DNA of 28,459 nucleotides, taken from a virus. A program made the position numbers and the translations under genes. The notes under the pieces were generated by a model that ran no database searches, was not told where the DNA came from, and worked only from the letters and a program-made list of their open reading frames with translations. The stretch covers positions 1 through 28,459 of the IMG/VR virus record IMGVR_UViG_3300035204_001819; one strand, written 5' to 3'. Shown piece after piece: positions 1,281-24,333 of this stretch; the first letter of the stretch is position 1, and every line of letters begins with the position of its first letter.

Positions 1281-1294
1281 AACAACTATAAAAC

Positions 1295-1364
1295 TTACCT
1301 TGCCGCACCGTACATTACCACACCTGACCAGTCCTGACCTGAGACTACCCGACCGTACTAGACC
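1295..1364 (-). repeat. Pentanucleotide array A, 14 units of GGTNN
   Basis: Read on the minus strand from 1364 to 1295 the sequence breaks into 14 consecutive 5-base units. Nine units begin with exact GGT and the others mostly differ at one of those three bases, while the last two bases vary freely. The array fills the gap between the 73-aa gene and the 44-aa gene and runs into the leader GTTTTAT before ATG 1280. There is no good hairpin and no open frame, so it is non-coding. Confidence 0.8.
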
Positions 1365-1376
1365 AAATTATTTAAA

Positions 1377-1598
1377 TTAACCTAACCCCGCTCGCTTGAT
1401 AGCCCTTTCTTGAGCCATTCCCCATATTTCTTTCATAGTAACTGTATAAACTACCGAGGTCCCTTTCGGTCGAACCTCCAAGTAATCTCCGTATTGTCCA
1501 GAGCCCGCTTTTAGGGTTACTACCAAGGGGCGTGTCCGACCCCTGTCACGAATTTCGGTGTTTGTTAGTCTTGCAACGCTTTTAGTTAGTCTTGTCAT
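1377..1598 (-). CDS. Hypothetical basic protein, 73 aa
   Basis: ATG at 1598, 24 bases downstream of the rIIA-like stop, so probably in the same transcript. The product is Arg/Lys-rich at the N terminus (MTRLTKSVARLTNTEIRDRG), followed by a beta-like segment with alternating hydrophobic residues (RPLVVTLKAG, TSVVYTVTM) and an amphipathic C-terminal helix. No Cys/His metal site and no membrane segment. A small nucleic-acid-binding protein would fit the charge, but I do not recognise the family. Confidence 0.65.
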   Translation of the reverse strand: MTRLTKSVARLTNTEIRDRGRTRPLVVTLKAGSGQYGDYLEVRPKGTSVVYTVTMKEIWGMAQERAIKRAGLG

Positions 1599-1622
1599 AT
1601 ATTTTAATTTATTTATTTGTTT

Positions 1623-3878
1623 CTAATTCGCATAGCGATCCATCGCCTTGACGTAATTTGCTACGCCTTCATAATCTTTTTTACGCATTTCATAGGTGCT
1701 TATCTTACTCAATAGAGGGTAGGTATTCTGAACTAATTTAACTGCCTTCTCAAGGTTGTGAGATGGCCTAAGAGACTTGATCTCTACGCCATGGTGCTTG
1801 GCTACGTCAAGAATTCCCTCAGTGGATTCCTTTTCTTCTTTGGATAAGCTCATCTCTTCAGCCTTCTCTGCGAGATCCATCATCGGTCCTTCTTCAACGT
1901 GATCTTTTATACTCATCGCCATTTTTAAATAATCTTCATCCACCTTTCTAATATGAAGTTGGTTTGCCAAAATTTGTAACATTCCCTTCGAATGCATGAT
2001 TGCCTTAACCTTCAAGGACATATAATCGACGATCTCAATCCAATTAGATGCATCTCTAAATTTATATTCTGTTGCTGCTTTTACTCCATGAATAACTGGT
2101 AAGTCAATCCCAAGATTTTTGAAATCCCTCCTCACATTCCTGTTGAAGTCGTAAGCGTCAACTTCCCTCCTGTAAGTGCGACCGTCATAACGAGAATCCA
2201 GAACATAAGGTCTGTACTTATCAATCCTAACGTAGACTCCACCCTTGGTGAAATCAACCGTATCGCACTCCCAGAAGTCAGAATTTTTATGGTTATCACC
2301 CCAACGGTTGCGACTAGGACGTCTGACACCAGAACATTCTTCCTCACTTTTAAGCACCACGACTTTGGCAGCATTCTTCGGATTATATTCGCCGCTTCCG
2401 TAAGAGGCGGTATTTATGTTAACTCCATGTTCAGAAGGATCTACCTCTGGTAATTCAGACAAGAGTCGAACAGGCGCATCAAAATTATGCTCTTTGATAT
2501 AATTAGCCTTTGCCTTTTTACTTGGGTAACGAACAACATAAACCTTGTTGTCTGCTAAGAAAGGGCAAATCCGTAACAATATACCCCGCCTATTACCTAT
2601 GTCATTTTCGATAATGATATTCTCTTTACTGCATTCTATGCAGCTCTGAGTTTTGCCAACGTACCGATCTGATTTGCTGCTATGATCATAACGAGCGACT
2701 TTCATGTCGTCGTTGGAATGATACTTTGAGGAATCTACTTTTTCCCCGTTCCATTCGATAGGAAACCTGTTCACGTCTCTCAACGCAGAATAAACATTAG
2801 ATCCTCTATTCAACTCACCAAACATTACCTTCGACTCGTACATAGTCTCGCACCCATCAAATCTAACTGTTAGTTGGGAGTGCAGATCATCAAAGGTAGA
2901 AACTAATTTTGATACAATAGCTTCGTTGGTTTTCTTAATGTATTGCAGCATCTCTCGACTAGCCGCCATTTGAATTTCGCCAATTTCAAAATCAAAATGC
3001 CAAGACCCGTGTTCGAAAACCCTAACCTTGGAGATGATATCTTGCAGTTGCTTCTCTTTTCTAGAATGCCCTTTTTTGTTAGCCTCTGCGACGAAACCAT
3101 TGAGATACTTAATTACGGGCTCAAGATCCACTTCGTAACCAACGTTGCCCATGCTCGCTGTGATCTCTCTCCTGTGAGAAGCGAGAAGTTTCCATCCTTC
3201 CCCCTCGTATTCAGAATCCAAAGGCTCGATATCCTCCAACCATGAATCTAATTGATCTTCGCCAAGGCCATGGATGATAGGCTTGACTTTAAAAAATCGA
3301 AAAACTTCTTTGCCTGTTTCGATGAATTCATCAATATCATATTCATTAACAGGGATAACAATTTCTGTACCGTTTTCTTCGCTAGATTTCTCGGAAGAGA
3401 GGGCAGTAATTTTTCCAATATCGGATTCGTCGATCCAAGCATTATAAGAAGTCTTTTTCCCTTTAATGAAAGTGTTAATTAAAAAATTATCACCGTAAGC
3501 AAATGCACTTTTTGAGCCAATCCCCAATTGACCATTGTAGAGATTAGAATCTCTTTTCTGGCTTTTGCCGTAGTAGCAATAAATTGTATTTATTTCTTTC
3601 TTACTAAGTCCTCGCCCGAAATTGCGAATTTTGAGACAGGGATCGAAACGAGTTGGAAAAGTAACCTCAATTGGGCGATTCGGTATGCCACACGCTACAT
3701 GTTGATCATATGCATTAGTTGAATACTCTCTAATAGCCGCTTTAGTTTTGTCGGAATAAAGTGAGTCACGGAGTATCCCAAAAACATAAGCTAACCCGTC
3801 ACTGGAATCGATACCGAAAGAAACGGATTCTCCAAGGTTAAGTGTCTTTACTTCTCTTTCTTTTGTTATTGTCTTCAT
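1623..3878 (-). CDS. rIIA: rIIA-like GHKL-family ATPase, 751 aa
   Basis: This resembles the rIIA protein of T4-like phages, a membrane-associated factor linked to lysis timing and protection against exclusion systems. GHKL ATPase motifs are visible: the N-box in REYSTNAYDQH near residues 47-57, the G1-like IRNFGRGLS near 86-94 and the G2-like GQLGIGSKSAFAYG near 115-128. G1 carries Asn where Asp is usual (NFGRG), so ATP binding may be modified. Residues beyond about 250 are less conserved and mainly charged. Length is close to that of T4 rIIA. A near-consensus sigma-70 promoter lies 40 bases upstream. No rIIB candidate is seen downstream. Another GHKL protein is the alternative. Confidence 0.8.
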   Translation of the reverse strand: MKTITKEREVKTLNLGESVSFGIDSSDGLAYVFGILRDSLYSDKTKAAIREYSTNAYDQHVACGIPNRPIEVTFPTRFDPCLKIRNFGRGLSKKEINTIYCYYGKSQKRDSNLYNGQLGIGSKSAFAYGDNFLINTFIKGKKTSYNAWIDESDIGKITALSSEKSSEENGTEIVIPVNEYDIDEFIETGKEVFRFFKVKPIIHGLGEDQLDSWLEDIEPLDSEYEGEGWKLLASHRREITASMGNVGYEVDLEPVIKYLNGFVAEANKKGHSRKEKQLQDIISKVRVFEHGSWHFDFEIGEIQMAASREMLQYIKKTNEAIVSKLVSTFDDLHSQLTVRFDGCETMYESKVMFGELNRGSNVYSALRDVNRFPIEWNGEKVDSSKYHSNDDMKVARYDHSSKSDRYVGKTQSCIECSKENIIIENDIGNRRGILLRICPFLADNKVYVVRYPSKKAKANYIKEHNFDAPVRLLSELPEVDPSEHGVNINTASYGSGEYNPKNAAKVVVLKSEEECSGVRRPSRNRWGDNHKNSDFWECDTVDFTKGGVYVRIDKYRPYVLDSRYDGRTYRREVDAYDFNRNVRRDFKNLGIDLPVIHGVKAATEYKFRDASNWIEIVDYMSLKVKAIMHSKGMLQILANQLHIRKVDEDYLKMAMSIKDHVEEGPMMDLAEKAEEMSLSKEEKESTEGILDVAKHHGVEIKSLRPSHNLEKAVKLVQNTYPLLSKISTYEMRKKDYEGVANYVKAMDRYAN

Positions 3879-3917
3879 CTTTTAGTATCTAAGTTCTATT
3901 GCGTTTAACGTGGGAGA

Positions 3918-3946
3918 ATAGTAAAGCCTTTTTCTCATAGTGTCAA
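3918..3946 (-). promoter_or_regulatory. Strong sigma-70-type promoter for the rIIA-like gene
   Basis: Minus strand: TTGACA at 3946-3941, a 17-base spacer, then TACTAT at 3923-3918. This is a perfect -35, optimal spacing and a good -10. It lies 40 bases upstream of ATG 3878 and points into rIIA. It is one of four near-consensus promoters on this strand. Confidence 0.8.
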
Positions 3947-3998
3947 CAACAAACTTTATCTTTTTCATCTTTTTATTATCACTACAAAAGACTATCCT

Positions 3999-4010
3999 AG
4001 TGTAATTATA
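3999..4010 (+). promoter_or_regulatory. AGTGTAATTA motif before SpeD
   Basis: The motif AGTGTAATTATA ends four bases before ATG 4015. Close relatives (GTGTAATTACA) sit just upstream of starts at 6887, 23192, 24621 and 24668. No Shine-Dalgarno sequence is visible before SpeD, so this may be a -10-like element giving a very short leader, or a regulator site in the divergent rIIA/SpeD region. Confidence 0.4.
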
Positions 4011-4014
4011 CGAT

Positions 4015-4371
4015 ATGGAGAATTGGGAAGAACTGGCCCCTGATATTTTCAGGCAAAGATTGGTAATAGAAGGAACTTTGTACTCTCCGTTTAAGGCGGA
4101 AGACATGACTACTTACTGTCGTGAGATTACCAAAGTTCTCAATATGACAGAGGTAACATCGCCAGTGTGCAATTACGATCCTGACTACGGGTGGTGTGCA
4201 TATACCCATTGGAAAGAATCTGGTATGCACATATATTCGTGGGACGACCATTCCCCTCCATTTTTCTCAATAGACCTCTATACTTGCAAGCCTTTCGATC
4301 CAATGGATGCAATTAGATATACGGAGCAGTTCTTCGAAGAAAACCTAATTAAGCTCACTTGGAAAGAATAA
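4015..4371 (+). CDS. speD: S-adenosylmethionine decarboxylase-like protein, 118 aa
   Basis: Family role: AdoMet decarboxylase is made as a proenzyme that cleaves itself before a serine to form the pyruvoyl cofactor, giving decarboxylated AdoMet for spermidine synthesis. The visible signature is ESGMHIYSW at residues 68-76, aligning without gaps with the bacterial ESHISIHTW, so Ser69 would become the pyruvoyl group. IDLYTC follows at 86-91 with Cys91 at the catalytic cysteine position, then PFDP. Tyr74 replaces the second His of the usual motif, and a His occurs two residues earlier. The length matches bacterial SpeD. It is one of only two plus-strand genes, is divergent from rIIA, and no spermidine synthase is in the window. 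Family assignment is good; activity is uncertain because of the changed residue. Confidence 0.8.
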   Translation: MENWEELAPDIFRQRLVIEGTLYSPFKAEDMTTYCREITKVLNMTEVTSPVCNYDPDYGWCAYTHWKESGMHIYSWDDHSPPFFSIDLYTCKPFDPMDAIRYTEQFFEENLIKLTWKE

Positions 4372-4387
4372 TTAAAGTGAGTCTTTG

Positions 4388-4415
4388 CGGGATATATTTA
4401 AATTAATTTATATAA
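4388..4415 (-). repeat. 28-base A+T-rich element, copy 1
   Basis: This 28-base stretch (starting CGGGATATATTTA on the plus strand) matches 10160-10187 at 26 of 28 positions; only the two central bases differ. Both copies sit at the 3' end of a minus-strand gene run, this one 7 bases beyond the methyltransferase stop. No matching CGGG-pairing arm is seen here, so unlike copy 2 it does not form a clear terminator. Confidence 0.6.
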
Positions 4416-4422
4416 AAGAAAT

Positions 4423-5079
4423 CTAACCCCTGAACTCGTAAGCGTGGATTTCAGGTCCATAACATCCGGGTCTCCAGCGACTCGTAAAAGGAGCGGATAG
4501 CTCTTCATCCCTAAAAAATCCGTATTTACTTGTTAAATTTTTTAAAGACTTCACGTCGTAAAATACCCGTGCATAATCACTGTGTTTATACCTACCTTGC
4601 CCTTCACGTTTCGGCTGTTCCGAGTGTTCGTGAGCGAAATTAACATACAAAACGAAAATGCCCCCAACAGACATGCACTTATTCAAATTAAGCAAACACT
4701 TTTCTAGTTGTTCAGAGCCACAATGAATAAATACTTGGCAAGCAACTGCAAAATCAAACCTCTCACCAAAGCTCTTAAAATCGAAATCTGGATTATAAGA
4801 AAATTTAGGCTTCTTCAAGTTGATCATAGTCTCCGATAACTCGTACTTTAGTCCTTCCCTAGCCCACTTCTCCTCTGGTTCGACACCGTGGTATTTTTCT
4901 GGGTCAAGATACGGGATTAAATGCCTTCCTAATCTAAGTGAGCCGCAGCCTATGTCTAACAATTTGTCCGTTGTCTTCAGTCCAAAATTCGATATTAAAT
5001 AAGTAAAATTTTTAGCACCAAAGTGATAGTAATTAGCGTCCGGTGCGACGAACGACCTGTAATTCATTTTTTCCAACAT
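4423..5079 (-). CDS. Class I SAM-dependent methyltransferase, 218 aa
   Basis: The glycine-rich SAM-binding loop LDIGCGSLRLG is at residues 41-51, followed by an acidic strand end in HGVEPEEKW and a motif IV-like segment FDFAVACQVFIHC. This is the Rossmann-like class I fold. The substrate cannot be told; the C-terminal part (residues 150-218) is aromatic and basic and probably forms the acceptor site. It is the last gene of the run 6887 to 4423 and starts one base after the preceding stop. Association with a sulfotransferase and a nucleotidyltransferase-fold gene suggests a small-molecule, glycan or nucleic acid substrate, not a classical DNA methyltransferase, because no DPPY or PC motif is seen. 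Confidence 0.8.
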   Translation of the reverse strand: MLEKMNYRSFVAPDANYYHFGAKNFTYLISNFGLKTTDKLLDIGCGSLRLGRHLIPYLDPEKYHGVEPEEKWAREGLKYELSETMINLKKPKFSYNPDFDFKSFGERFDFAVACQVFIHCGSEQLEKCLLNLNKCMSVGGIFVLYVNFAHEHSEQPKREGQGRYKHSDYARVFYDVKSLKNLTSKYGFFRDEELSAPFTSRWRPGCYGPEIHAYEFRG

Positions 5080-5080
5080 T

Positions 5081-5590
5081 CTAATCCTTGAAAAGCTTAT
5101 GGATATTCCTATCGTCTATTGAAAACCCTTTGCTTAAATACTTTACGAGTCTCTTGGCTTTATTGCAATTTTTATGGGTAGTATTGTTTCCTGTATAAAC
5201 CAACTTCCTTTCCTTTATGTCTTCCCAAAAGCTTGGGTGACAGTACAACTCTCCTTTATTATCGAAAGCCACACAACAAATTGTATAATCAAAATTATTA
5301 ATTGTTTCTTCTGGAGTCTTCCCAAGATGGAGTAAGTCAAATTCTTGTTCTTTTAATGAAAATTTTCCTCCAAGTCTTAATTTTTTAACGTAAGTAGAGC
5401 CAAGGTTTGCAAATCTTTCGGCTGCGATTAATCTATCTCTTTTTGATTCAAAATACATGTCAGTGTCGTTAATGGGTTTTCCAATTATCATACTCACTAT
5501 TGCTCCCCCAGCGATCCAGCAATGACCATTAAAGTTCTTCAAAAGCGGAGTAAACCTTTTTGCTATTTGCTCTTTTGTACGCCTTTTCAT
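5081..5590 (-). CDS. Nucleotidyltransferase-fold protein (Pol beta-like), 169 aa
   Basis: The segment CWIAGGAIVSMIIG at residues 24-37 followed by NDTDMYF at 41-47 matches the GG...DxD core of the Pol beta nucleotidyltransferase superfamily. Asp42 and Asp44 would be the metal ligands. A third acidic candidate is in EFDLLHL near residue 85. The C-terminal third is Lys-rich. It overlaps the sulfotransferase stop by four bases (ATGA). Similar stand-alone proteins occur in phages, but the substrate is unknown; tRNA-end or small-molecule nucleotidylation are both possible. Confidence 0.65.
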   Translation of the reverse strand: MKRRTKEQIAKRFTPLLKNFNGHCWIAGGAIVSMIIGKPINDTDMYFESKRDRLIAAERFANLGSTYVKKLRLGGKFSLKEQEFDLLHLGKTPEETINNFDYTICCVAFDNKGELYCHPSFWEDIKERKLVYTGNNTTHKNCNKAKRLVKYLSKGFSIDDRNIHKLFKD

Positions 5591-6246
5591 TTCTCGAAAC
5601 TATAACCAAAATAATCTATTTCTTCTTTAGTGTGTTTGCCAACTAATTCCCTTGTCTCGCTATCATAATATTTAGAGTAATGATCGTGTTGACCACTATT
5701 AAATTCATGCAAATACGTATCTTCAATAGAACAGTCTTTTTTTGGCTCTGGAAGATCTAATTTCCTTCTGATTTCATTAAAGTCGTTATGTAAATTTTCA
5801 AATTTATAGATTTTATCAGCCAAAATATTCCCGTCCTCATCTCTTACCCATTGAAATTGTTGAGCCCAGCATACCCCATCTCGTTTAGGCGCAATCATTA
5901 CTTTCACCCAATCTTTGAAACTCCATATCAAGGCCCATTTTTTTTCTGGATGTAATAGCTGCCATCGTTCACTTCTCTGATACGTATACAACGAAACAAG
6001 GCGAGCCCATGGATTTCTGAAAAAACAAAATTTAAAGTAACTATTAAAATCCTCCCGTGTTAAAATATTCGATTCTTTCAGGTCTTTCAAAAGAGAATGG
6101 GGACTTTTCTCTTCCTCTCCGCATTCGCAGTTTAAATCTGTCATTCGGCAAGAAAGCCCGTAGCCTTTTAATGCAAAAGATATACTCGTCCCTCCCGCTT
6201 TAGGTATGTGGCAAAACACAAATTTATATTTTGGGGATATGATCAT
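5587..6246 (-). CDS. PAPS-dependent sulfotransferase family protein, 219 aa
   Basis: Two PAPS-binding motifs of the sulfotransferase superfamily are clear. The 5'-phosphosulfate loop is HIPKAGGTS at residues 13-21. The 3'-phosphate site is FFRNPWARLVSLY around residues 75-87. The order strand-loop-helix at the N terminus and the F-G-Y-S ending are typical of the carbohydrate/Sulfotransfer_2 type. No membrane anchor is present, so it would act in the cytoplasm. A second, divergent sulfotransferase (12634-13254) and an APS kinase (10180-10746) lie in the window. The gene overlaps its neighbours by four bases on each side. Acceptor unknown; glycan, lipid or tyrosine are options. Confidence 0.85.
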   Translation of the reverse strand: MIISPKYKFVFCHIPKAGGTSISFALKGYGLSCRMTDLNCECGEEEKSPHSLLKDLKESNILTREDFNSYFKFCFFRNPWARLVSLYTYQRSERWQLLHPEKKWALIWSFKDWVKVMIAPKRDGVCWAQQFQWVRDEDGNILADKIYKFENLHNDFNEIRRKLDLPEPKKDCSIEDTYLHEFNSGQHDHYSKYYDSETRELVGKHTKEEIDYFGYSFEK

Positions 6247-6887
6247 TTTTCTTCGGTATTCACCACCCCATAGTCATACCTTTCGTCGTCACTAGTAACC
6301 CACTTCCAGTTTTGTTCAACTGACCATCTGTGATTATGAAGTTTCCTCTCTATTACCATCTGATTTGGTTTAACACAAAAGGAGGGATCGTGACATCTCA
6401 ACCTATTATTGGGTTGAATGGCATAATTACCGTTATCTAATTCTACAAAATGACCACATTTATGCTGTCCCGCTGACTCCGAAAATGTAACATCTACTAT
6501 ATTTGAATCTTCGTGGGCCCAATCCAAAGTAAATAAATACAACCCTTCATATTCTTTTTTACGCCGACTAATATATTTTATTTTAGAATATTTAAGAGCA
6601 GAAAAACAAGTAACTGAAATATGATAACTAAAACAATCCCAAAGCATTAATTCATCCAGCTCCATAGCTGGAGCCCCCTCTTTAGAACAGAAAGCGTGAA
6701 TAGGAAGCCTCCAGAAAATACCCCCATCTTCTTGTAAGCAATGAAAAAGTGGGACGTTACTAGGGATGCTTGCCACGCCGAAAAGTAGGCATGGATAATA
6801 AGTTCCATGGCCGTCCTCCATGTTCCTTAAAAACTCGCCCCTCACAAAGCATTCTTGCGGAGGGATATTCGCATTAAGATACGCCAT
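6243..6887 (-). CDS. Unknown phage protein, 214 aa
   Basis: ATG at 6887, just after the tRNA 3' end and a TGTAATTACA palindrome. The sequence is rich in Cys, His and Trp (for example PPQECFVRGEFLRN near the start and a Cys/His-rich region HKCGHFVELDNG past the middle), suggesting metal binding, but no classical zinc-finger spacing is clear. The N-terminal half looks like a compact alpha/beta domain with YPCLLFGVASIP. It overlaps the following sulfotransferase by four bases. I do not recognise a named family and cannot give a function. Confidence 0.7.
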   Translation of the reverse strand: MAYLNANIPPQECFVRGEFLRNMEDGHGTYYPCLLFGVASIPSNVPLFHCLQEDGGIFWRLPIHAFCSKEGAPAMELDELMLWDCFSYHISVTCFSALKYSKIKYISRRKKEYEGLYLFTLDWAHEDSNIVDVTFSESAGQHKCGHFVELDNGNYAIQPNNRLRCHDPSFCVKPNQMVIERKLHNHRWSVEQNWKWVTSDDERYDYGVVNTEEK

Positions 6888-6890
6888 ACA

Positions 6891-6900
6891 TGTAATTACA
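6891..6900. promoter_or_regulatory. TGTAATTACA palindrome between the tRNA and the start at 6887
   Basis: Perfect 10-base palindrome, extended on the minus strand to GTGTAATTACAT, three bases before ATG 6887. Same motif as at 3999-4010, 23206-23215 and 24627-24638. Candidate operator or -10-like element. Confidence 0.4.
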
Positions 6901-6906
6901 CATGTT

Positions 6907-6983
6907 TGGTACTCTCACTGGGACTTGAACCCAGAACCCTCTGTTTAGAAGACAGATGCTCTATCCAATTGAGCTACGAGAGC
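6907..6983 (-). tRNA. tRNA-Arg(UCU), CCA encoded
   Basis: On the minus strand positions 6983 to 6910 fold as a full cloverleaf. The acceptor stem GCTCTCG pairs with TGAGAGT through two G-T wobbles; the D stem is GCTC/GAGC, the anticodon stem TCTGT/ACAGA with loop CTTCTAA, and the T arm CTGGG-TTCAAGT-CCCAG. The anticodon UCU reads AGA, a codon favoured in A+T-rich phage genes. The discriminator A is followed by encoded CCA at 6909-6907. The 5' end lies four bases after a 25-unit pentamer array, so the tRNA is probably cut from a longer transcript. Confidence 0.95.
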
Positions 6984-6987
6984 AAGT

Positions 6988-7112
6988 CACCATACCGGAA
7001 CAAGCCTTACAAGAACAAACCAAACATCAGCAAACCTAACTTCACCTAACCGAGCCTTTCCGTACCTCGCCAAACAACACCTCACATCACCTGACCCCAC
7101 CCCACCCAACCT
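6988..7112 (-). repeat. Pentanucleotide array B, 25 units of NGGTN
   Basis: The longest of four such arrays. Read on the minus strand from 7112 to 6988, it is 25 consecutive 5-base units in one phase, most being NGGTN or one mismatch away (AGGTT, GGGTG, AGGTG, TTGTT, AGGCT and so on). It starts just after the stop of the 142-aa gene and ends four bases before the tRNA. There is no open frame or strong hairpin in it. Confidence 0.8.
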
Positions 7113-7123
7113 GACGGCAAATT

Positions 7124-7552
7124 CTATTCCTGAGAATCTTCTTTGCGTTTTTCTTCCTGACGCAATTTGTAATCCTTGATCCTCTTTTGGACATCAAGGT
7201 ACTCCTTGCTCCGCAGAAAAGCCTTCTCTTTAACCTCTTCTAAGTCGCATTCGTCCTGTAACTGAACCCATGCCTCTGTATAACGCCGTTCGCACTCTTT
7301 AACATAATCAGGTCCATGCTTGAGGCAAACTGGGTGATCAGGGTCAGTCCATAGCCTTTTGTCAAAAATATAACGATCATCCACCACTGGCTCAAAGTCA
7401 GGGTGTACAATATGTTGTGCCCGACTAGGGCTACAACGTATATGCCTAGCTCCCGCAAAAAGCAATGTCTCAGGCTCATTCCAAGCTATCGCAGACACTC
7501 TAACTGCATCCTCACGGGCGCTCATTTCCTCACCGCACTTATCGCACGTCAT
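7124..7552 (-). CDS. Hypothetical protein with N-terminal CxxC, 142 aa
   Basis: The product begins MTCDKCGEEM, a CxxC knuckle, with later Cys and His residues (GARHIRCS, HPVCLKHG) that could complete one or two zinc sites. The C-terminal 50 residues are highly charged and probably helical, ending KLRQEEKRKEDSQE. ATG at 7552 overlaps the previous stop by one base (TAATG). A zinc-ribbon nucleic-acid or protein-binding role is plausible; the family is not recognised. Confidence 0.7.
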   Translation of the reverse strand: MTCDKCGEEMSAREDAVRVSAIAWNEPETLLFAGARHIRCSPSRAQHIVHPDFEPVVDDRYIFDKRLWTDPDHPVCLKHGPDYVKECERRYTEAWVQLQDECDLEEVKEKAFLRSKEYLDVQKRIKDYKLRQEEKRKEDSQE

Positions 7553-7788
7553 TAATTACCTTTCTTCTTTCTCTTATGCGCCTCCCGATACTCAGCAACT
7601 TTTTCAGGATTATCCTTCTGCCATTGCTTGGAATACGCAATAAGTTTTTCCTTATTATTTTCATAATAATCTTTAGCTCGCTGCTTCGTAGCTTCTTTAT
7701 TTGCTTCTCTGTATTTTCTTTGTCGTTCCTGAACACGAGCTTTATTTTTCTGATACCACTGAGCTTTATATTTTGGTCTATCTGACAT
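7552..7788 (-). CDS. Small basic helical protein, 78 aa, HNH N-terminal-like
   Basis: The protein consists of repeated short helices of the type KAQWYQKNKARVQERQRKY and YYENNKEKLIAYSKQW, spaced by about 12-13 residues. Such YxxNKEK repeats are common at the N terminus of phage HNH endonucleases, where they bind DNA. No HNH motif follows before the stop, so this is a stand-alone version or a remnant. It may bind nucleic acid by charge. It overlaps the next gene's start by one base. Compare the related-looking 140-aa protein at 13251-13673. Confidence 0.65.
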   Translation of the reverse strand: MSDRPKYKAQWYQKNKARVQERQRKYREANKEATKQRAKDYYENNKEKLIAYSKQWQKDNPEKVAEYREAHKRKKKGN

Positions 7789-7801
7789 GATATTTTCCTT
7801 T

Positions 7802-8152
7802 TTATAGGGTTACTTTCATTCCTGCGGGGTCCAACTTCCCCATCAATTTTTTGAGATCATACTCCGCCTTTCTCCTCCATTTTATCTGGGTAAATAAAGA
7901 GTCAAAAATCTCTTTTTCTTTTTCGGCCTTTTTGATGTCGCAATCACCATTTTCCCATGTTACTCCAGCTTGGTGATCAGAAGTGTTCCCACACCGGAGA
8001 GCGCAAACTATCAGTCCGTAACGTTCTGCAAGATGATCCTCCATCTTGTTAGTCATTGCTTCGTGTTCCTCCAAGTTTGTTATATTTGGGCAGCACCCAT
8101 CTAAATCTGGCGCAATACCATAAGCCGAATCTAATTCTGTATAATGTGTCAT
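7802..8152 (-). CDS. Hypothetical protein, 116 aa
   Basis: ATG at 8152 overlaps the preceding stop by four bases (ATGA). The N-terminal half contains clustered Cys residues (DGCCPN, CALRCGN) and a WENGDCD segment, while the C-terminal half is a charged helix (KKAEKEKEIFDSLF). No transmembrane segment. Metal binding is possible, but the family is not recognised. Confidence 0.6.
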   Translation of the reverse strand: MTHYTELDSAYGIAPDLDGCCPNITNLEEHEAMTNKMEDHLAERYGLIVCALRCGNTSDHQAGVTWENGDCDIKKAEKEKEIFDSLFTQIKWRRKAEYDLKKLMGKLDPAGMKVTL

Positions 8153-8535
8153 TCTTCCTCCAATACTTTTAAAAAATTATCAATACTCTTTCTTGTTTCC
8201 GCTTCTTCTCCGTAGACATCCTCCCATGTCACTTTCTTCCATCCCGAAGTCATGCATTCGTACCACTGTGCTTCTATGCAAACAAAGTCACCCACCATCA
8301 TGGATCTAACCCCTGCTCTTATGAAGGTGTCGCATTCCATGTCCGACCCCCCGTTGAAGCATGCGAATGTCTTTTCCAAAAGTCTCATATGATTTTTTCC
8401 AACCTTGTTCGTTCCCTGACATTCAGGCTCCTCCGAGAATCTTCCCTCGTAAAAAATATTCAATTTACGACACTCCTGCTGAGTTAACTCAGGATACTTA
8501 ATGGCGACTGACAAAATATGATCTTCTTTTTTCAT
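8149..8535 (-). CDS. Hypothetical protein, 128 aa
   Basis: An N-terminal helical part (residues 1-45) is followed by a compact beta-rich C-terminal segment. That segment has a GDFVCIEAQWYECMTSGWKKVTW pattern in pieces: GDFVCIEAQWYEC, then SGWKKVTWE. This resembles short SH3-like or beta-barrel modules in many small phage proteins. ATG 8535 follows the AGTTTTATAATTACA leader and pentamer array C. It is the first gene of the run 8535 to 7124. Function unknown. Confidence 0.65.
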   Translation of the reverse strand: MKKEDHILSVAIKYPELTQQECRKLNIFYEGRFSEEPECQGTNKVGKNHMRLLEKTFACFNGGSDMECDTFIRAGVRSMMVGDFVCIEAQWYECMTSGWKKVTWEDVYGEEAETRKSIDNFLKVLEEE

Positions 8536-8550
8536 TGTAATTATAAAACT

Positions 8551-8615
8551 TACCTTACCTCACCCTATCTTGCTAAACCAAACCGAACCTGACATAATCG
8601 CACCTAGCATCACCA
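8551..8615 (-). repeat. Pentanucleotide array C, 13 units of NGGTN
   Basis: Minus strand 8615 to 8551 divides into 13 units in one 5-base phase, eight of which are exact NGGTN (TGGTG, AGGTG, AGGTT, CGGTT, TGGTT, GGGTG, AGGTA, AGGTA). It is followed immediately by AGTTTTAT and ATG 8535. It lies between the SleB-like gene and the 128-aa gene. Confidence 0.8.
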
Positions 8616-8628
8616 AATTTTAAATTAA

Positions 8629-9231
8629 TCATTTAGCCCTCACAATCGTTGGAGTCTTGTGCTCCTTGCGGAGCTTGTAGAAAACGTGATTGCCAACAAC
8701 CGCAACAGGCTTAATAGGCTTTTTAATCTCTTTCCCGTTGGGTAATTCGATAATCTCAAAGGCCCAGTATGGCGGTGTCTTCATGTACTTCTTACTATAA
8801 TAATGATCGGCATGCCTTGTGTATTCGACATCAATCAATGTTCTGCTTCTGGTGCTCATGTATAGAGAGCGAGCCAGTAGACTAGCGTAAGTTGCCTCTT
8901 TGGTTTTGAGAAGATACTCTACGTCCTTGACGGTCTTACCGCTGTTCCAACAGCTAAACTGTCTGTCCTGTCTACAAATAGTCGTAGCGTGCAAACCCCG
9001 ATTGGCCATTCTCTGGGCAATGGTCCCTGCCACCATGTACATACCTCGTCGTCCTTCCGAACGACTTTCTAGGAGAATGGTGCATGCAATAATTTTTTCA
9101 TGCATATTCAAGGGAGGCGTGAGAGCCTTCATAGTCCTTAATTGTTTCTTGACCCAGACGCTAGCTGGACTTTTCTTCTCTTCCGAAAGCCCCACAAAGG
9201 GGATCAACAATAGTAATAATATCTTTTTCAT
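8629..9231 (-). CDS. SleB-like cell-wall hydrolase with signal peptide, 200 aa
   Basis: Residues 1-16 (MKKILLLLLIPFVGLS) form a Sec-type signal peptide or signal anchor. The mature part matches the SleB/Hydrolase_2 family of peptidoglycan lytic enzymes: LLESRSEGRRGMYMVAGTI at residues 53-71 corresponds to the family's EARGE...G core, with Glu55 the likely catalytic residue. RQFSCW at 90-95 is the family QFSCW-type motif. It likely cuts peptidoglycan at lysis, exported by Sec. I chose ATG 9231 because the conserved GTAAGTTTTAT leader ends just before it and the signal peptide starts there. The longer frame to 9351 would translate repeat array D. No holin is recognised nearby. Confidence 0.8.
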   Translation of the reverse strand: MKKILLLLLIPFVGLSEEKKSPASVWVKKQLRTMKALTPPLNMHEKIIACTILLESRSEGRRGMYMVAGTIAQRMANRGLHATTICRQDRQFSCWNSGKTVKDVEYLLKTKEATYASLLARSLYMSTRSRTLIDVEYTRHADHYYSKKYMKTPPYWAFEIIELPNGKEIKKPIKPVAVVGNHVFYKLRKEHKTPTIVRAK

Positions 9232-9243
9232 TTTAATAAAACT

Positions 9244-9333
9244 TACTTTACCTCGCCTTGCCACACAAAACCGGACCTCACAAAGCCAGAGCCCACACCA
9301 CCATACAATACCCGACCTGAACGCACCACGCCG
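9244..9333 (-). repeat. Pentanucleotide array D, 18 units of NGGTN
   Basis: Minus strand 9333 to 9244 divides into 18 units in one phase, more degenerate than the others (TGGTG, AGGTC, CGGTT and AGGTA alternate with TTGTG, TGGCA, AGGCG). It ends in AGTTTTAT right before ATG 9231. The strong hairpin at 9352-9373 lies just upstream of it. Confidence 0.75.
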
Positions 9334-9351
9334 CCTCATTAAATTCATCAA

Positions 9352-9373
9352 GTGGGGGGCTTTCGCCCCCCAT
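9352..9373. terminator. GC-rich stem-loop after the gene at 9379
   Basis: GGGGGGC (9354-9360), loop TTTC, GCCCCCC (9365-9371), with further T-A and G-T pairs outside. On the minus strand the loop is GAAA, a GNRA tetraloop. It begins 6 bases after the stop of the 221-aa gene. There is no U tract on either strand, so it may be a 3'-end-protecting hairpin and not a classical intrinsic terminator. Confidence 0.6.
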
Positions 9374-9378
9374 GTTAA

Positions 9379-10044
9379 TTAGTCTTCTAATTCAATCACT
9401 TCGTAGTTAACGACCTTGAACCGACCATACATTGGTCGATAATCGCCTACACCATTAAATCGACCAGCTTCAGCTAGCACCTCTTGAAAGTCGATAGAGC
9501 CATCTGCTCCAGTATCATTAATATACTCAGCAGCTAACACTTCGAATTCAAATGTAGCTTCCCATCCTTGTCGGACCAAAGGACGAGCCCTAACAATTCG
9601 ACCACGGGTTGATGGATTAACAACAGACCGTCGATCTTCGTCGTGATCCTTTATTCCGAGGTCAGCAAGTTCATGTCCACCGGACCAAACAATCCCACTC
9701 TTGAATAGCTCGTATGCACCCTTCCGAGTATTGCGAGGGTCTTTCCAAGATTTCGCAGAGTTTCTCATTGCAGAATGAACATACTCAGCAGGAAGTCCAA
9801 TGTTTCCATTCTTACAGCGGAATAGCTTTGCTTCTAAATCGTCTACCATTCGTTTGGAAGAACCTTTTTTAGCACTCGATTTAGCTTCTGTCTCTTCGAT
9901 TATGAATCGATTAAACAGCATGTCTGAAGTGCCTTTGATCGTGAACTTAACCTTGTAAGGTTTGGAGAGATCCAAGATCTCAGAACCAGAGTCTCCTTGT
10001 CCCTGCGATTCTACCGAATCTTTTTTACTAATTACTTTAGCCAT
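9379..10044 (-). CDS. Unknown protein, 221 aa, weakly RAMP/Cas7-like
   Basis: The gene has its own near-consensus promoter and an AGGAAA ribosome site (AAAAAGGAAATATTATG), is followed by a strong hairpin, and so is a single-gene unit made at high level. The N-terminal 25 residues are polar linker. Then come VKFTIKGTSDMLFNRF (residues 32-47), GLPAEYVHSAMRNSAKSW and, near the C terminus, a glycine-rich segment FNGVGDYRPMYGRFKV. The strand at each end and the Gly-rich loop resemble RAMP-superfamily proteins such as Cas7, but that is a visual impression only. Other possibilities are a DNA-binding or abundant early protein of unknown family. Confidence 0.75.
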   Translation of the reverse strand: MAKVISKKDSVESQGQGDSGSEILDLSKPYKVKFTIKGTSDMLFNRFIIEETEAKSSAKKGSSKRMVDDLEAKLFRCKNGNIGLPAEYVHSAMRNSAKSWKDPRNTRKGAYELFKSGIVWSGGHELADLGIKDHDEDRRSVVNPSTRGRIVRARPLVRQGWEATFEFEVLAAEYINDTGADGSIDFQEVLAEAGRFNGVGDYRPMYGRFKVVNYEVIELED

Positions 10045-10746: not shown

Positions 10747-10937
10747 CGTTCGTTAACCTCCGGAAACGTCCCGTCGGGACGCATTCTAAATTCTCCAAAT
10801 TCGCTGTTCATATACCCTTTGATGGATGCATCTATTTCTAATGCTAACTGTTCTCTTGCGGATTCTGATGCCATATTGACATTTCCGTTATAAGAATCGG
10901 AGTACCTATCTATTGCAAGTCTAATTATGTCTTTCAT
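10743..10937 (-). CDS. Hypothetical protein, 64 aa
   Basis: Small acidic, mostly helical protein linked to both neighbours by four-base ATGA overlaps, which supports it being real. The N-terminal part (MKDIIRLAIDRYSDSY) looks like an amphipathic helix. The C-terminal part is Gly/Pro-containing (FRMRPDGTFPEVNER). No motif recognised. Confidence 0.6.
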   Translation of the reverse strand: MKDIIRLAIDRYSDSYNGNVNMASESAREQLALEIDASIKGYMNSEFGEFRMRPDGTFPEVNER

Positions 10938-11770
10938 TTCTTTTCTCCTTCGGATTTGTCTATTAGGTGTCTAAGTTTCCTCATCGCCTTAAACTCTATT
11001 TGCCTAACCCTCTCTCTGGTGACTTTGAATATTTTGCCGATCTCATCTAAGGTCATGGGAGCACCAGTATCTATCCCAAATCTGAATTTTAATACTTCAC
11101 TTTCCTTCTTACTTAACTTGGATAGGAACATAAGCATATGCTTTTTCTCGCTGCTGGACTCAGCATTCTGACAAGGGTCAGAGGTGTTCTCGTCAGCAAT
11201 TACGTTAGCCAAAGCAAACTCGCTATCTCCATCTCTTGAAATATCAGCATCTAGAGAAGAAACGGATTGCCCTGATGCCAAGATCCGTCGAACAATAACC
11301 TCGTCTAAATCAAATCTTAATCCAATCTCTTTGTTTGTCGGTACGTCCTCATTAGTCCTTTCGTATTCGGTAATATATTTCAATATATTATTTCTCAACG
11401 TGTAAACATTTTGGGGGACTCTAATTAGGGACCTATTTGCTCCGCCTAAATCGGCAATATAACGCATGATCCCTTGTCTTATCCACCAAACCGCATAAGT
11501 CGAAAACCGATTATCTTTCTTTCCGTCGAATTTATCTACTGCTTTAGATAAACCAATATTCCCTTCATTAATCAAATCCTCCACATCAATCCCACTAGAA
11601 ATAGAAAATTTATTAGCTATCATAATGACTAGTCTAATATTTGCCTCGATAAATTTTTTCCGAGCAGCTTCGCCTTTTTTTCCTCCTTTTTTTATTTGAA
11701 AAGAAAGAGTTTTCTCCTCCTTCGCTGTCAAAAGCGGGACAACTTCAAAAGAATACTTACCAAATGACAT
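10934..11770 (-). CDS. Sigma-70 family RNA polymerase sigma factor, 278 aa
   Basis: Regions run in the usual order. Region 1.2-like residues are near 10-30. Region 2 spans roughly 40-110, with DVEDLINEGNIGLSKAVDKF, FSTYAVWWIRQGI (2.3-2.4) and a conserved core-binding helix. Region 3 spans about 125-170 (IRVPQNVYTLRNNI). Region 4 spans about 215-272 (TLDEIGKIFKVTRERVRQIE, the -35-binding helix-turn-helix). It looks like an RpoD/RpoS-type group 2-3 factor and is much more complete than the short T4 gp55 late sigma. It probably redirects host RNA polymerase. It overlaps the upstream stop by one base and the downstream start by four. Confidence 0.93.
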   Translation of the reverse strand: MSFGKYSFEVVPLLTAKEEKTLSFQIKKGGKKGEAARKKFIEANIRLVIMIANKFSISSGIDVEDLINEGNIGLSKAVDKFDGKKDNRFSTYAVWWIRQGIMRYIADLGGANRSLIRVPQNVYTLRNNILKYITEYERTNEDVPTNKEIGLRFDLDEVIVRRILASGQSVSSLDADISRDGDSEFALANVIADENTSDPCQNAESSSEKKHMLMFLSKLSKKESEVLKFRFGIDTGAPMTLDEIGKIFKVTRERVRQIEFKAMRKLRHLIDKSEGEKK

Positions 11771-12633: not shown

Positions 12634-13254
12634 TTAAAAGGTGTACTTGAACTCATCTAGGTCTTCTTCACTTAATTTTGTAGCTACTTTCTTCGTCTCC
12701 TCATTGAAGAAATCTTGATACGGAGAGTGTCGTGTTGAATTTTTGTGTGGGAGGTTGGCGTCAACATTTTTTATTTCATAATTAGATATGAATTTTTTAA
12801 ATTCTTCATTAATGTTTTCAAACCTCAATATCTCATCCACTTTAATTTTGTTATTCAGAACAAGGTGGGATTTTTGAGAAAGGGAATAAAAAAAATCTTC
12901 TCTTTCGTCGTACATCTTTCTACAGAAAGAATCAAAAGAACATTCAGGATCTATAAAATGAGAAAGAATCCGCTTGTAACTTTTTATGTAAACAAACATT
13001 GAAACCAAACGGTCGTAAGGGTTTCTTACCACCGCAAACGAAGGTACGTTCAAAATTCTACCCCCAAGCTCTTCAACCGCTTCACTCAGTAAGCAATGAG
13101 AAGGAGCAAGGATGCCTCCGTACCTTCCATCGTTCGCTCTGAGGAAACTAATCAACTTTTCATCCCTCACTGTGTTCGCTTTTCCTAAAGCTTCGTAGAT
13201 GGAAGTGCTGGCGTTTTTTGGTATCCTTATGAATGTAACTGATAAATTCATCAA
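12634..13254 (-). CDS. Second sulfotransferase family protein, 206 aa
   Basis: Residues 8-18 FIRIPKNASTS form the 5'-phosphosulfate loop and VVRNPYDRLVSMF near 75-87 the 3'-phosphate motif, both characteristic of PAPS-dependent sulfotransferases. The C-terminal part contains the usual acceptor-independent tail with an NEETKK...DLDEFKY pattern. It shares the fold but little sequence with the protein at 5587-6246, so the two probably have different acceptors and are not a recent duplication. It has no membrane anchor. Start ATG 13254 overlaps the upstream stop by four bases; MM at the start leaves ATG 13251 as an alternative. Confidence 0.85.
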   Translation of the reverse strand: MMNLSVTFIRIPKNASTSIYEALGKANTVRDEKLISFLRANDGRYGGILAPSHCLLSEAVEELGGRILNVPSFAVVRNPYDRLVSMFVYIKSYKRILSHFIDPECSFDSFCRKMYDEREDFFYSLSQKSHLVLNNKIKVDEILRFENINEEFKKFISNYEIKNVDANLPHKNSTRHSPYQDFFNEETKKVATKLSEEDLDEFKYTF

Positions 13255-17028: not shown

Positions 17029-18129
17029 TCAGACTGAAGTTAACCCAAGCTTCTCTAATCTGCTATTAAACGCATCAAAAGGAATATCTTTGTACGATAA
17101 GACACATGAAGTACTATCGTTATTACGTATTTCATCTGCTATTATTCCTTCGCTCATTAAGCTAGCTACCGCAGCAATAGGAAAAGCAGTCGCCCTCTGC
17201 ATGGCGGAGAAATCCCCGTCGCTTTCCACAAGAATTTCTTTTTTCCAACGGAGGGCTCCTTTTTTAAGTTCGGTTTTAATAATTACTATATCTTGATCTT
17301 CATCAGATTGGCGGCAGCCTTCACTAAATATTTGAAACAAACAATCATCAGAAAGCTTACATTTCCTAATTAGAAATTTAACAGCATCGCAATGTCCTTT
17401 GTATCTTATTGTTTTATAGTGACAATCTTTAACGCCACGAGACTTCATGTCGTGTATGGTGTGAGAAGCTCCTCCGCTGGTGTAAAACGCCTCCATTTCT
17501 TGCCGCATGCATTTTAGTTTTACTGCTTCGTGTCCATCCATGCCGTCAACGGTAATAATCTTCCCACCCTCAAGAATTTCACATCTATCTCTGTATTCGT
17601 TTATTAACCCGTCGACAGACCAAGTAACGACATAATCCAAAGGGTGATTGACTGGTTTAGAGGGTAATCCTCCAACCATCATTTCCACCCTCTCAGGAAC
17701 TCCTTGAATTTCTTTGTAGCCCCATTCGGCGAGAATATTAACCCATCCCGGTGCGAGGCCAAGATCCGTCATGACTGGGCGTGTGGCATGCTCTTCTGCG
17801 TATTGGTTTATTTGTTTCGAAACGTCTACACGACCTCCTAGATCGCAATAACGAATTCCCCTATCTACACAAAACTCCGCCAAAGGTAAATTTTGGTGAT
17901 AGGGCAAACTACTAATTAAAACTTCTGGGGCCTCGAAATTAGTTAGGATGTCTTTGTAATCACGTTCTCCACAACCGTAAAAAACCCCATCGCTTGCGCT
18001 TATGTATTTTCTAAACACTTGGCCAGCTTCGGGATTGGAATCTAAACCAACCACTTGGTGACCAAGTTTACACATGGCATAGCAAATCGCTTGTCCCATC
18101 CGGCCTATTCCTGCTACAGCAACTTTCAT
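17029..18129 (-). CDS. Saccharopine/lysine dehydrogenase-like NAD(P)-dependent oxidoreductase, 366 aa
   Basis: The N-terminal Rossmann motif VAGIGRMG is at residues 5-12. Family-specific segments follow: DLGLAPGWVN near 142-151, VGGLPSKPVNHPLDY near 172-186, SVDGLINEY near 190-198, TSGGASHTIHDMKSRG and KTIRYKGH. This set is typical of the saccharopine dehydrogenase family that includes L-lysine 6-dehydrogenase and LYS9. The first makes allysine from lysine. Carboxynorspermidine synthase is a more distant alternative. It lies nine bases after an aldehyde dehydrogenase gene, which would fit oxidation of an aldehyde product to 2-aminoadipate. Substrate is inferred, not shown. Confidence 0.85.
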   Translation of the reverse strand: MKVAVAGIGRMGQAICYAMCKLGHQVVGLDSNPEAGQVFRKYISASDGVFYGCGERDYKDILTNFEAPEVLISSLPYHQNLPLAEFCVDRGIRYCDLGGRVDVSKQINQYAEEHATRPVMTDLGLAPGWVNILAEWGYKEIQGVPERVEMMVGGLPSKPVNHPLDYVVTWSVDGLINEYRDRCEILEGGKIITVDGMDGHEAVKLKCMRQEMEAFYTSGGASHTIHDMKSRGVKDCHYKTIRYKGHCDAVKFLIRKCKLSDDCLFQIFSEGCRQSDEDQDIVIIKTELKKGALRWKKEILVESDGDFSAMQRATAFPIAAVASLMSEGIIADEIRNNDSTSCVLSYKDIPFDAFNSRLEKLGLTSV

Positions 18130-18138
18130 AATTTTTAA

Positions 18139-19620
18139 TTATTTCATCCCTTGTGGGAAACTTAACGTATCCGCATGATTAACTGTCCAGCTCACTTCAT
18201 GAGTCACCGCTCTGAACGTTCTAGCGGCACTTGGGAAACCATTCCCCGATTTCTTTACTCCCCCAAAAGAAAGATGAGATTCCGCAGCAATGGAACCACC
18301 ATTCCAATAGATCATCCCTGCGTCACACTCTTCCCTGCAAATACGAGCTAATCTGTAGTCATTCGTCATAACCCCAACTGCTAGTCCGTATTCCGTATCG
18401 TTATATATACCTATTGCCTCTTCGTTTTTATCGAAAGGAACAATAGCAACATGCGGACCAAATACTTCGGATCTCAAATACTCAGCTTTAGTCCATTCAC
18501 TTTGGTAGACCGTAGGGCTTACAAAAAACCCTTTTTCTCCTATACGTTTGCCCATCAATAGCTTTTCGGCGTTTTCGTCCTTCTCCACCATTTGGTTGTA
18601 AAAATCGACTTTGTTAAATCCCTGCCCATTGATTAAAGGACCATAATAAGCATCGCTAGGCTCTCCTGAGACATCAAAGGGTGCTCCAATTTTCAATGCT
18701 GAAACTTTGTCTACAAAAGCGTCTCTAAATTTATCAACGATATTACGATGAACAATTAATCTACTTGCGGAAACACACCTTTGCCCAGCCAACTTAAAGG
18801 AGCTAGCAACGCAAGCGTCTACCGCCATTTCTAGATCAGCGTCTTCAAATACAAGAACAGCCGACTTGCTTCCCATCTCGCAAGAAGTTGTTTTATTCCA
18901 ACTTTGAGCAGCTTGCATCCTGATCATCATTCCTACATCTGCACTACCAGTGAAGCAAATGTGATCGACGTTTTCGCCTACTAAAGCAGAGCCAGTAGCA
19001 CCGTCCCCATGCACAACATTAAAAACCCCTTTAGGTATGCCAGCTTCTTCGAATATTTCCGCACACAACTGACTAGACATAGGTGCGTCTTCGGAAGGTT
19101 TTAAAACAACAGTATTGCCTTCTACTAGGGCTGGCGCAGCACACCAAAAAGGCCCAATGGCCATGGGGAAATTGAAAGGGGAAACGATTGCGATGACCCC
19201 CTTAGGTTTCCGAAGTATATAACTGTCTTTTTCGTGCAGTTCTGACGCAATCGCTTCCCCGACAGGAGTTTTCCCAGAACCGAATGCATACTGTGACATA
19301 TGCAAAGCTTCAATTACCTCAGCTAAAGATTCATTGAAATTTTTTCCGGTCTCTAAAGAAATTGCTCTAGCAAGATCATCTTTTCTTGAGTCGACTATTT
19401 GTGCTATTTTATTAAAAAAATCCGCTCTCTCAACTCTGCTTTTCCTTTTCCAAGACGCAAATGCTACCCTTGCGGCTGCATAAGCTTTATACACTGTCTT
19501 TGGAGTACTCAAGGGAAAGATACCAAGAACTTCTTCAGAAGACGGATCTCTCTTTTCGAAAGCTAAATCACTCGTTTCCCACTCACCATTTATATAGTTT
19601 TTACCAATATATTCACTCAT
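18139..19620 (-). CDS. NAD(P)-dependent aldehyde dehydrogenase, 493 aa
   Basis: A full-length ALDH. The cofactor-binding FTGSADVG is at residues 223-230, the catalytic Asn in SPFNFP is at 150, the general-base Glu248 is in SCEMGSKS and the nucleophile Cys282 in LAGQRCVSASR. EVFGPHVAIVPF and SFGGVKKSGNG are typical C-terminal motifs. It oxidises an aldehyde to an acid. The closest look is to semialdehyde dehydrogenases acting in amino acid breakdown (allysine, P5C or KGSA types). All catalytic residues are present, so it is likely active. It sits five bases downstream of the halogenase and nine upstream of the lysine dehydrogenase-like gene. Confidence 0.93.
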   Translation of the reverse strand: MSEYIGKNYINGEWETSDLAFEKRDPSSEEVLGIFPLSTPKTVYKAYAAARVAFASWKRKSRVERADFFNKIAQIVDSRKDDLARAISLETGKNFNESLAEVIEALHMSQYAFGSGKTPVGEAIASELHEKDSYILRKPKGVIAIVSPFNFPMAIGPFWCAAPALVEGNTVVLKPSEDAPMSSQLCAEIFEEAGIPKGVFNVVHGDGATGSALVGENVDHICFTGSADVGMMIRMQAAQSWNKTTSCEMGSKSAVLVFEDADLEMAVDACVASSFKLAGQRCVSASRLIVHRNIVDKFRDAFVDKVSALKIGAPFDVSGEPSDAYYGPLINGQGFNKVDFYNQMVEKDENAEKLLMGKRIGEKGFFVSPTVYQSEWTKAEYLRSEVFGPHVAIVPFDKNEEAIGIYNDTEYGLAVGVMTNDYRLARICREECDAGMIYWNGGSIAAESHLSFGGVKKSGNGFPSAARTFRAVTHEVSWTVNHADTLSFPQGMK

Positions 19621-19625
19621 ATCTT

Positions 19626-24171: not shown

Positions 24172-24333
24172 TCAGAGTAAACCTTCTCTCTCTTCGTCTC
24201 TCTTTCTTCTCATGTAGTCTCTCTTTTGTTTCCTTCTCCTTTCTAGATCTCTTTCGTCATAAGCCTTTCTAGCTTTCTTTACGGCGAGCTTACCTTTCTC
24301 TGTTTTGAAATATTTTTTATGCTTTGTTGCCAT
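24172..24333 (-). CDS. Small very basic protein, 53 aa
   Basis: ATG 24333, TGA 24174-24172. MATKHKKYFKTEKGKLAVKKARKAY is followed by an Arg/Lys/Glu helix (RDLERRRKQKRDYMRRKRDEE). It resembles the helical repeats at 7552 and 13251 in style (TEKGKxAxKKARKAY) and may bind nucleic acid. No upstream overlap supports it, so coding rests on composition and frame. Confidence 0.5.
   Translation of the reverse strand: MATKHKKYFKTEKGKLAVKKARKAYDERDLERRRKQKRDYMRRKRDEEREGLL

Follow-up and report, generated by a model that had tools for sequence, protein, structure and literature searches.

Introduction

VIPR (Viral Interference Programmable Repeat), reported in an April 2026 preprint (PMC13142463, doi 10.64898/2026.04.26.720920), is a recently described RNA-guided system that uses a gapped code, a CRISPR-like weapon of phages. 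According to the preprint, its protein, Vipr, is a RAMP protein with an RRM core and a glycine-rich loop, assigned a place outside all CRISPR RAMPs, and it co-purifies with GGY/NN RNA; the guide (vrRNA) consists of alternating GGY/NN units, with a variable tract of 9–16 units, followed by a constant tail (PMC13142463). Only the NN letters are reported to pair with double-stranded DNA, one base being skipped per unit, usually the wobble base of a codon; the natural targets described are satellites, prophages, and other VIPRs, and repression was demonstrated in E. coli (PMC13142463). The vrRNA layouts named in the main text are hammerhead-interspersed, staggered, and single-vrRNA, and the discoverers propose that VIPR is older than CRISPR (PMC13142463). 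Two further systems bear comparison, specifically the Csm3/Cas7 backbone of Class 1 CRISPR-Cas, in which guide RNA is held in fixed-length steps, and the leader sites of TRAP (MtrB), in which a multimer reads (G/U)AG triplet cores with spacers of 2–3 nt.

The DNA analyzed here, referred to as the window, is a 28,459-nt viral record (IMGVR_UViG_3300035204_001819) from a large phage that encodes RIIA and its own sigma factor. Its arrays were spotted from the raw sequence alone, in an original prediction that knew of no described phage equivalent, a statement since superseded by the VIPR preprint (PMC13142463, 2026).

Results

Four phased pentamer arrays on the minus strand

The minus strand of the window carries four GGTNN-type arrays of 14, 25, 13, and 18 units, 70 in total (Table 1; coordinates count GGT as the first bases of each 5-nt unit), located within one base of where the original prediction had placed them and, as it had held, free of phase slips in all four. 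The arrays are spread over 8 kb within the leaders of genes, all on the vipr strand; each is indeed upstream of a co-oriented gene or tRNA, with a start codon directly 3′ of three arrays and a tRNA directly 3′ of A2. The accompanying claim that GGT is held was overstated, since GGT occurs in only 37/70 units and GGY (Y = C or T) in 45/70 (64%), but at least two of the three GGY positions are matched in 69/70; T is the commonest replacement of the first core base (12 units). The remaining two bases vary almost freely, as had been proposed, with G21 A19 T16 C14 at unit position 4 and A31 T20 C10 G9 at position 5, where the excess of A is partly due to constant AA units at array 3′ ends.

Chance was excluded as the source of the arrays by the best 13-unit score of the minus strand, which is 34 (32–34 per array); when the whole strand was shuffled 200 times under a first-order Markov model, the best score averaged 20.7 and never exceeded 24. 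The plus strand scores only 20, and shuffling the letters within each array likewise gives scores well below the real one; same-composition sequences, proposed at the outset as the control for GGT phasing, never approached the real arrays. In folding, the secondary structure of the four arrays was not above that of shuffles, which is what a guide RNA would be expected to show. A frame started at TTG (8629–9351) passes through A4; the cell-wall-hydrolase gene plausibly starts at an ATG 3′ of A4 (MKKILLLLLIPF..., with a signal peptide), so that A4, like the other arrays, is non-coding, in line with the earlier view that the arrays are untranslated.

Table 1. Array, tail, RNA, and protein features of the window.
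Feature	Position	Strand	NN letters	Remarks
Constant 3′ tail of A1	1288..1298	-		exact copy of GTAAGTTTTAT
Array 1 (A1), putative vrRNA guide	1295..1364	-	CT AC CG AG CA CA CT CA GT AA AC GC AA AA	14 units; 8 kb downstream of vipr
tRNA-Arg(TCT)	6907..6983	-		immediately 3′ of A2
Array 2 (A2), putative vrRNA guide	6987..7111	-	TG GG GG CA GA GA GT TT GA AC AA TC TA GA TA TT GA TT TT CT AA TT CC AT GA	25 units; without the common tail; 3 nt before the tRNA
Constant 3′ tail of A3	8543..8553	-		exact copy of GTAAGTTTTAT
Array 3 (A3), putative vrRNA guide	8550..8614	-	GA TA GC TA CA TC TT TT AA AG GA AA AA	13 units
Constant 3′ tail of A4	9236..9246	-		GTAAGTTTTAT; overlaps last A4 unit
Array 4 (A4), putative vrRNA guide	9243..9332	-	GT GC CA CG AT AT GG GG CT TT GA CC TT GT AA GA AA AA	18 units; directly downstream of vipr
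GC-rich hairpin GGGGGGCGAAAGCCCCCC	9354..9371			between vipr stop codon and A4
vipr, RAMP/Cas7-like protein (P0002)	9379..10044	-		221 aa; just upstream of A4; phrog_4652, PHROG annotation "unknown function"

The protein encoded beside A4

Genes next to several arrays elsewhere end in a common motif, GxGDxRPxxGRF, which is also present in the window protein 9379–10044. An iterative profile seeded with this protein and one relative gathered 33 open frames in array-bearing loci, the window included. The first PDB match naming SUSP1 Vipr was weak and single; a 26-sequence profile that included the window protein matched SUSP1 Vipr (PDB 36pp_D) with E = 2.2e-37 over 174 positions. The AlphaFold model of the window protein (pLDDT 88) matched Csm3/Cas7-type RAMPs in Foldseek (E 4e-8), and VIA-align superposed it on Csm3/Cas7 subunits with Z of about 12 over about 165 residues; the PDB fold library used ends at 2026-04-08 and SUSP1 Vipr is absent among the matches listed, the link to SUSP1 being that of the sequence profile. 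The G-loop GVGDYRPMYGRF is conserved, with invariant glycines, and the window gene is an intact frame with clade-invariant residues. Taking sequence profile and structural model together, the protein is assigned to the Vipr family; none of Pfam, NCBIfam, and PADLOC matches it.

Phylogenetic analysis placed the window Vipr beside five relatives' Viprs that form its sister group (support 100/99 for all six) and apart from three proteins (L011, L075, and L122) labelled SUSP1-like from shared sequence motifs, so it belongs to another subclade than the SUSP1-like proteins. The fold is shared with Csm3/Cas7, as would be the holding of guide RNA in fixed-length steps; unlike Class 1 CRISPR-Cas, however, the window lacks CRISPR repeats separated by contiguous unique spacers, its step is 5 nt with two putative pairing bases, and PHROGs and Pfam scans of proteins from a subset of the frames revealed no other cas gene.

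Coupling of arrays and vipr in relatives

Scanning the collection by DNA pattern alone (six perfect GGTNN units) recovered unrelated phage contigs with many cleaner arrays, some of which consist of a constant end and variable units; about 30 of these contigs encode a Vipr homologue. Loci were scanned with a 7-member Vipr alignment, the 26-member alignment being too divergent for scanning, and the protein-only search yielded 80 viral loci with Viprs 36–46% identical. Co-oriented GGY/NN arrays surround vipr in 76/80 of these relatives and in 0/80 shuffled loci; a period-5 signal, whose absence from relatives had been named beforehand as grounds for abandoning the prediction, is thus present in 76/80. 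Of the 184 arrays in the relatives, 174 fall between -1 and +2.5 kb relative to the vipr start. Perfect GGY makes up 72% of the units in the relatives' arrays, with the third core base being T about as often as C, and the NN letters are close to uniform. Among the genes beside arrays in the 80 relatives, none is widely conserved except vipr, and a vap accessory gene was recognized neither beside the window vipr nor as a conserved neighbor in the 80 relatives.

These comparisons bear on three other explanations. If the window locus were a decaying, inactive VIPR, its GGY scaffold would be degrading, and both the 25/70 units that are not GGY and the lack of any target in searches with the window guides fit such a state. 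Decay is nevertheless unlikely, since the perfect-GGY share among same-clade relatives has a median of 73% (5–95% range 47–95%), which includes the window and makes its degeneracy ordinary for the clade; moreover, nearly every window unit keeps at least two GGY positions, and the vipr frame has retained its integrity and its clade-invariant residues.

Control in cis by a ring- or filament-forming protein (possibly Vipr itself) that binds GGU arrays in leaders and governs the downstream genes and the tRNA, as TRAP does, would account for the position of the arrays directly 5′ of three start codons and a tRNA, and Vipr-type proteins are reported to bind such RNA (PMC13142463). As the explanation of the arrays it is very improbable: TRAP reads GAG/UAG triplets, not the GGT/GGC core found in 45/70 window units, and the window protein is a RAMP; the NN letters are hypervariable and carry information that regulation would not require; array positions around vipr are many in relatives, and vipr alone is conserved beside them. 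The multimeric GGU-reading RNA-binding protein of the original prediction fits the Vipr RAMP beside the arrays, but the purpose given to it was wrong, the arrays being most likely guides and not TRAP-type sites. An additional cis-regulatory role may exist, because the arrays sit in gene leaders.

A third reading is that the arrays promote gene shuffling, either as recombination seams, which the same prediction had also raised, or as tracts that bind a protein to single-stranded DNA. The arrays are intergenic, and the vipr neighborhood of one relative (L029) resembles a recombination module when judged by eye; however, different arrays have no NN content in common and would thus offer little homology for recombination, and arrays are tied to the RAMP gene and its strand, so this origin is most likely wrong and can practically be set aside.

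A 47.5-kb record that contains locus L127 (hereafter L127) is syntenic with the window; the shared gene order includes vipr near the homologous sigma-factor gene. It has one array, with NN letters differing from those of the window arrays, which suggests that VIPR guides turn over quickly. Protein scans of viral contigs confirmed no close relative of the window Vipr or of the window RIIA, and megablast of the region against phages gave no match.

Array ends and the tRNA

The window contains three exact copies of GTAAGTTTTAT, all at array 3′ ends (A1, A3, and A4), and a ATGAAAAA start follows each of these arrays after a few bases. This constant sequence after the variable tract of 3/4 arrays may correspond to the tail of VIPR; it is, however, very short and AT-rich, with no stable structure seen, in contrast to the structured tail of VIPR. 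A4 begins 46 nt 3′ of the vipr stop codon, and the hairpin between them is a possible transcript boundary or processing element. Promoter- and terminator-like sites in the window were near chance level.

The tRNA was the sole match of an Rfam search, and A2 was the only array abutting a tRNA among the loci compared at that stage. Because A2 is tail-less and ends so close to tRNA-Arg, cleavage by RNase P at the start of the tRNA could generate the 3′ terminus of the A2 RNA. The locus might then represent a vrRNA variant in which one guide is matured by a tRNA and the other three are leader-embedded with a short unstructured tail, a suggestion that is tentative. A tRNA-joined vrRNA is not among the layouts named in the main text of the preprint (PMC13142463). 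In L127, tRNA-Arg(TCT) lies at another site and has no array, and the gene before it has a homologue in the window that lacks a tRNA; the pairing of A2 with a tRNA therefore probably arose in the lineage of the window.

Pairing rule and targets

To compare spacings, 420 twelve-unit guides drawn as a sample from 105 loci were matched against both strands of 5 Mb of collected locus DNA; skip 3 was left out of the count, since an array read with three skipped bases matches itself. Guides matching at least 20/24 letters numbered 15 at skip 1, 9 at skip 0, 11 at skip 2, and 5 at skip 4, and those matching at least 21/24 numbered three at skip 1 and none at skips 0, 2, and 4 or with shuffled guides. 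In one of the best matches (21/24), a guide of L071 paired, with a single mismatch, along 11 consecutive units against the antisense of the G-loop codons (VGDFRPTYGRF) of other phages' vipr; a guide from L154 (20/24) was aimed at RTRPAxKAGW of other phages' vipr, and both matches are in frame, with the skip at the wobble base. The arrays of relatives thus appear to fit the skip-1 rule modestly better than other spacings, which supports the published rule without proving it alone, given how few guides are involved and how rich in vipr genes the searched DNA is.

For the window guides, nothing above shuffled guides was found in the collected loci, the window itself, or L127. Exact cores of 8–9 units from A1–A4 searched against viral contigs, and one 9-unit A4 core searched against genomes, gave no match extending clearly beyond the core. 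The decoded 1-skip matches (9, 9, 41, and 2 viral; 13 genome) extend no more than one or two units past the core, and repeated hits to a single gene family account for most of the 41, so all were taken as chance. The missing targets say little, since cores had to match exactly and sampling of the habitat is probably poor.

Discussion

The arrays of the window are interpreted as the regions that encode the vrRNA guides of a phage VIPR system, with gene 9379–10044 as its vipr, at a probability of roughly 0.92. As in the described system, a phage-encoded RAMP protein of about 200 aa has alternating GGY/NN arrays as neighbors, and the window brings together the RAMP protein, the tandem GGY/NN tract, and the vipr flanked by arrays in a viral genome. 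It differs in that its arrays are dispersed over other genes' leaders and not only beside vipr, that A4 and A2 exceed the reported 9–16 units, that A2 abuts a tRNA, and that no vap gene was recognized.

Under the VIPR interpretation, the arrays would be transcribed from the minus strand into RNA of GGU/GGC units parted by two free bases. Each pentamer would probably be occupied by one Vipr subunit that grips GGY and presents NN, as Cas7/Csm3 does with crRNA; the NN letters would then pair in order with one target base skipped between them (NNx NNx ...), thereby selecting a DNA site, usually within a rival phage or mobile element, where binding would lead to repression. The arrays and their phase, the homology and fold of Vipr, the coupling of arrays to vipr, and the modest skip-1 signal come from the present analysis; formation of the RNP, the 1-nt skip, and repression are carried over from other VIPRs (PMC13142463). 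By analogy with these, the window locus would be expressed and active, with a target of its own.

What is known is the VIPR kind, described in 2026; what is new is one more VIPR locus, which belongs to a large phage and has its guides scattered among gene leaders, one of them attached to a tRNA. The Vipr protein, the array coupling, and the modest skip-1 signal come from data that do not depend on the SUSP1 experiments in the preprint. The leader-embedded and tRNA-joined vrRNAs could amount to a VIPR variant if RNA data show them, and the four decoded guides of the window provide ready queries for the rival element under attack.

Gene neighbourhoods in the window

The neighbourhood formed by the phage-encoded sigma factor and vipr, the gene for the RAMP/Cas7-like protein Vipr, recurs in the syntenic L127 record. 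In the relative L279, tRNA-Arg(TCT) (L279:15883-15959) follows a small gene; the window homologue of this gene (24172-24333) has no tRNA there, and the tRNA-Arg is instead placed behind A2, a period-5 array. The three genes between 17029 and 21065 form a possible metabolic cassette, and such halogenase/dehydrogenase cargo is uncommon in phages. By eye, the product of 12634-13254 resembles the sulfotransferase-like protein.

Annotated genes of the window
Product	Position	Strand	Match	Context
Sulfotransferase-like protein	5587-6246		PHROG	
RNA polymerase sigma factor, phage-encoded	10934-11770			near vipr
Tryptophan halogenase	within 17029-21065	minus	Pfam, 5e-90	
Aldehyde dehydrogenase	within 17029-21065	minus	3e-127	
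Saccharopine-dehydrogenase-like protein	within 17029-21065	minus		

Tandem arrays and putative guides in relatives

In the viral locus L029, about 12 arrays lie in tandem (2217-3406), separated by the constant element GGAATGGTTTAATGAATTTAAT and adjoining vipr (1575-2171), an arrangement that resembles a guide array. The putative guide RNAs (vrRNAs) L071:2780 and L154:3119, which score just 18 of 24 matched bases at their own loci, appear to aim at conserved codons in the vipr genes of other phages, that is, VIPR against VIPR.
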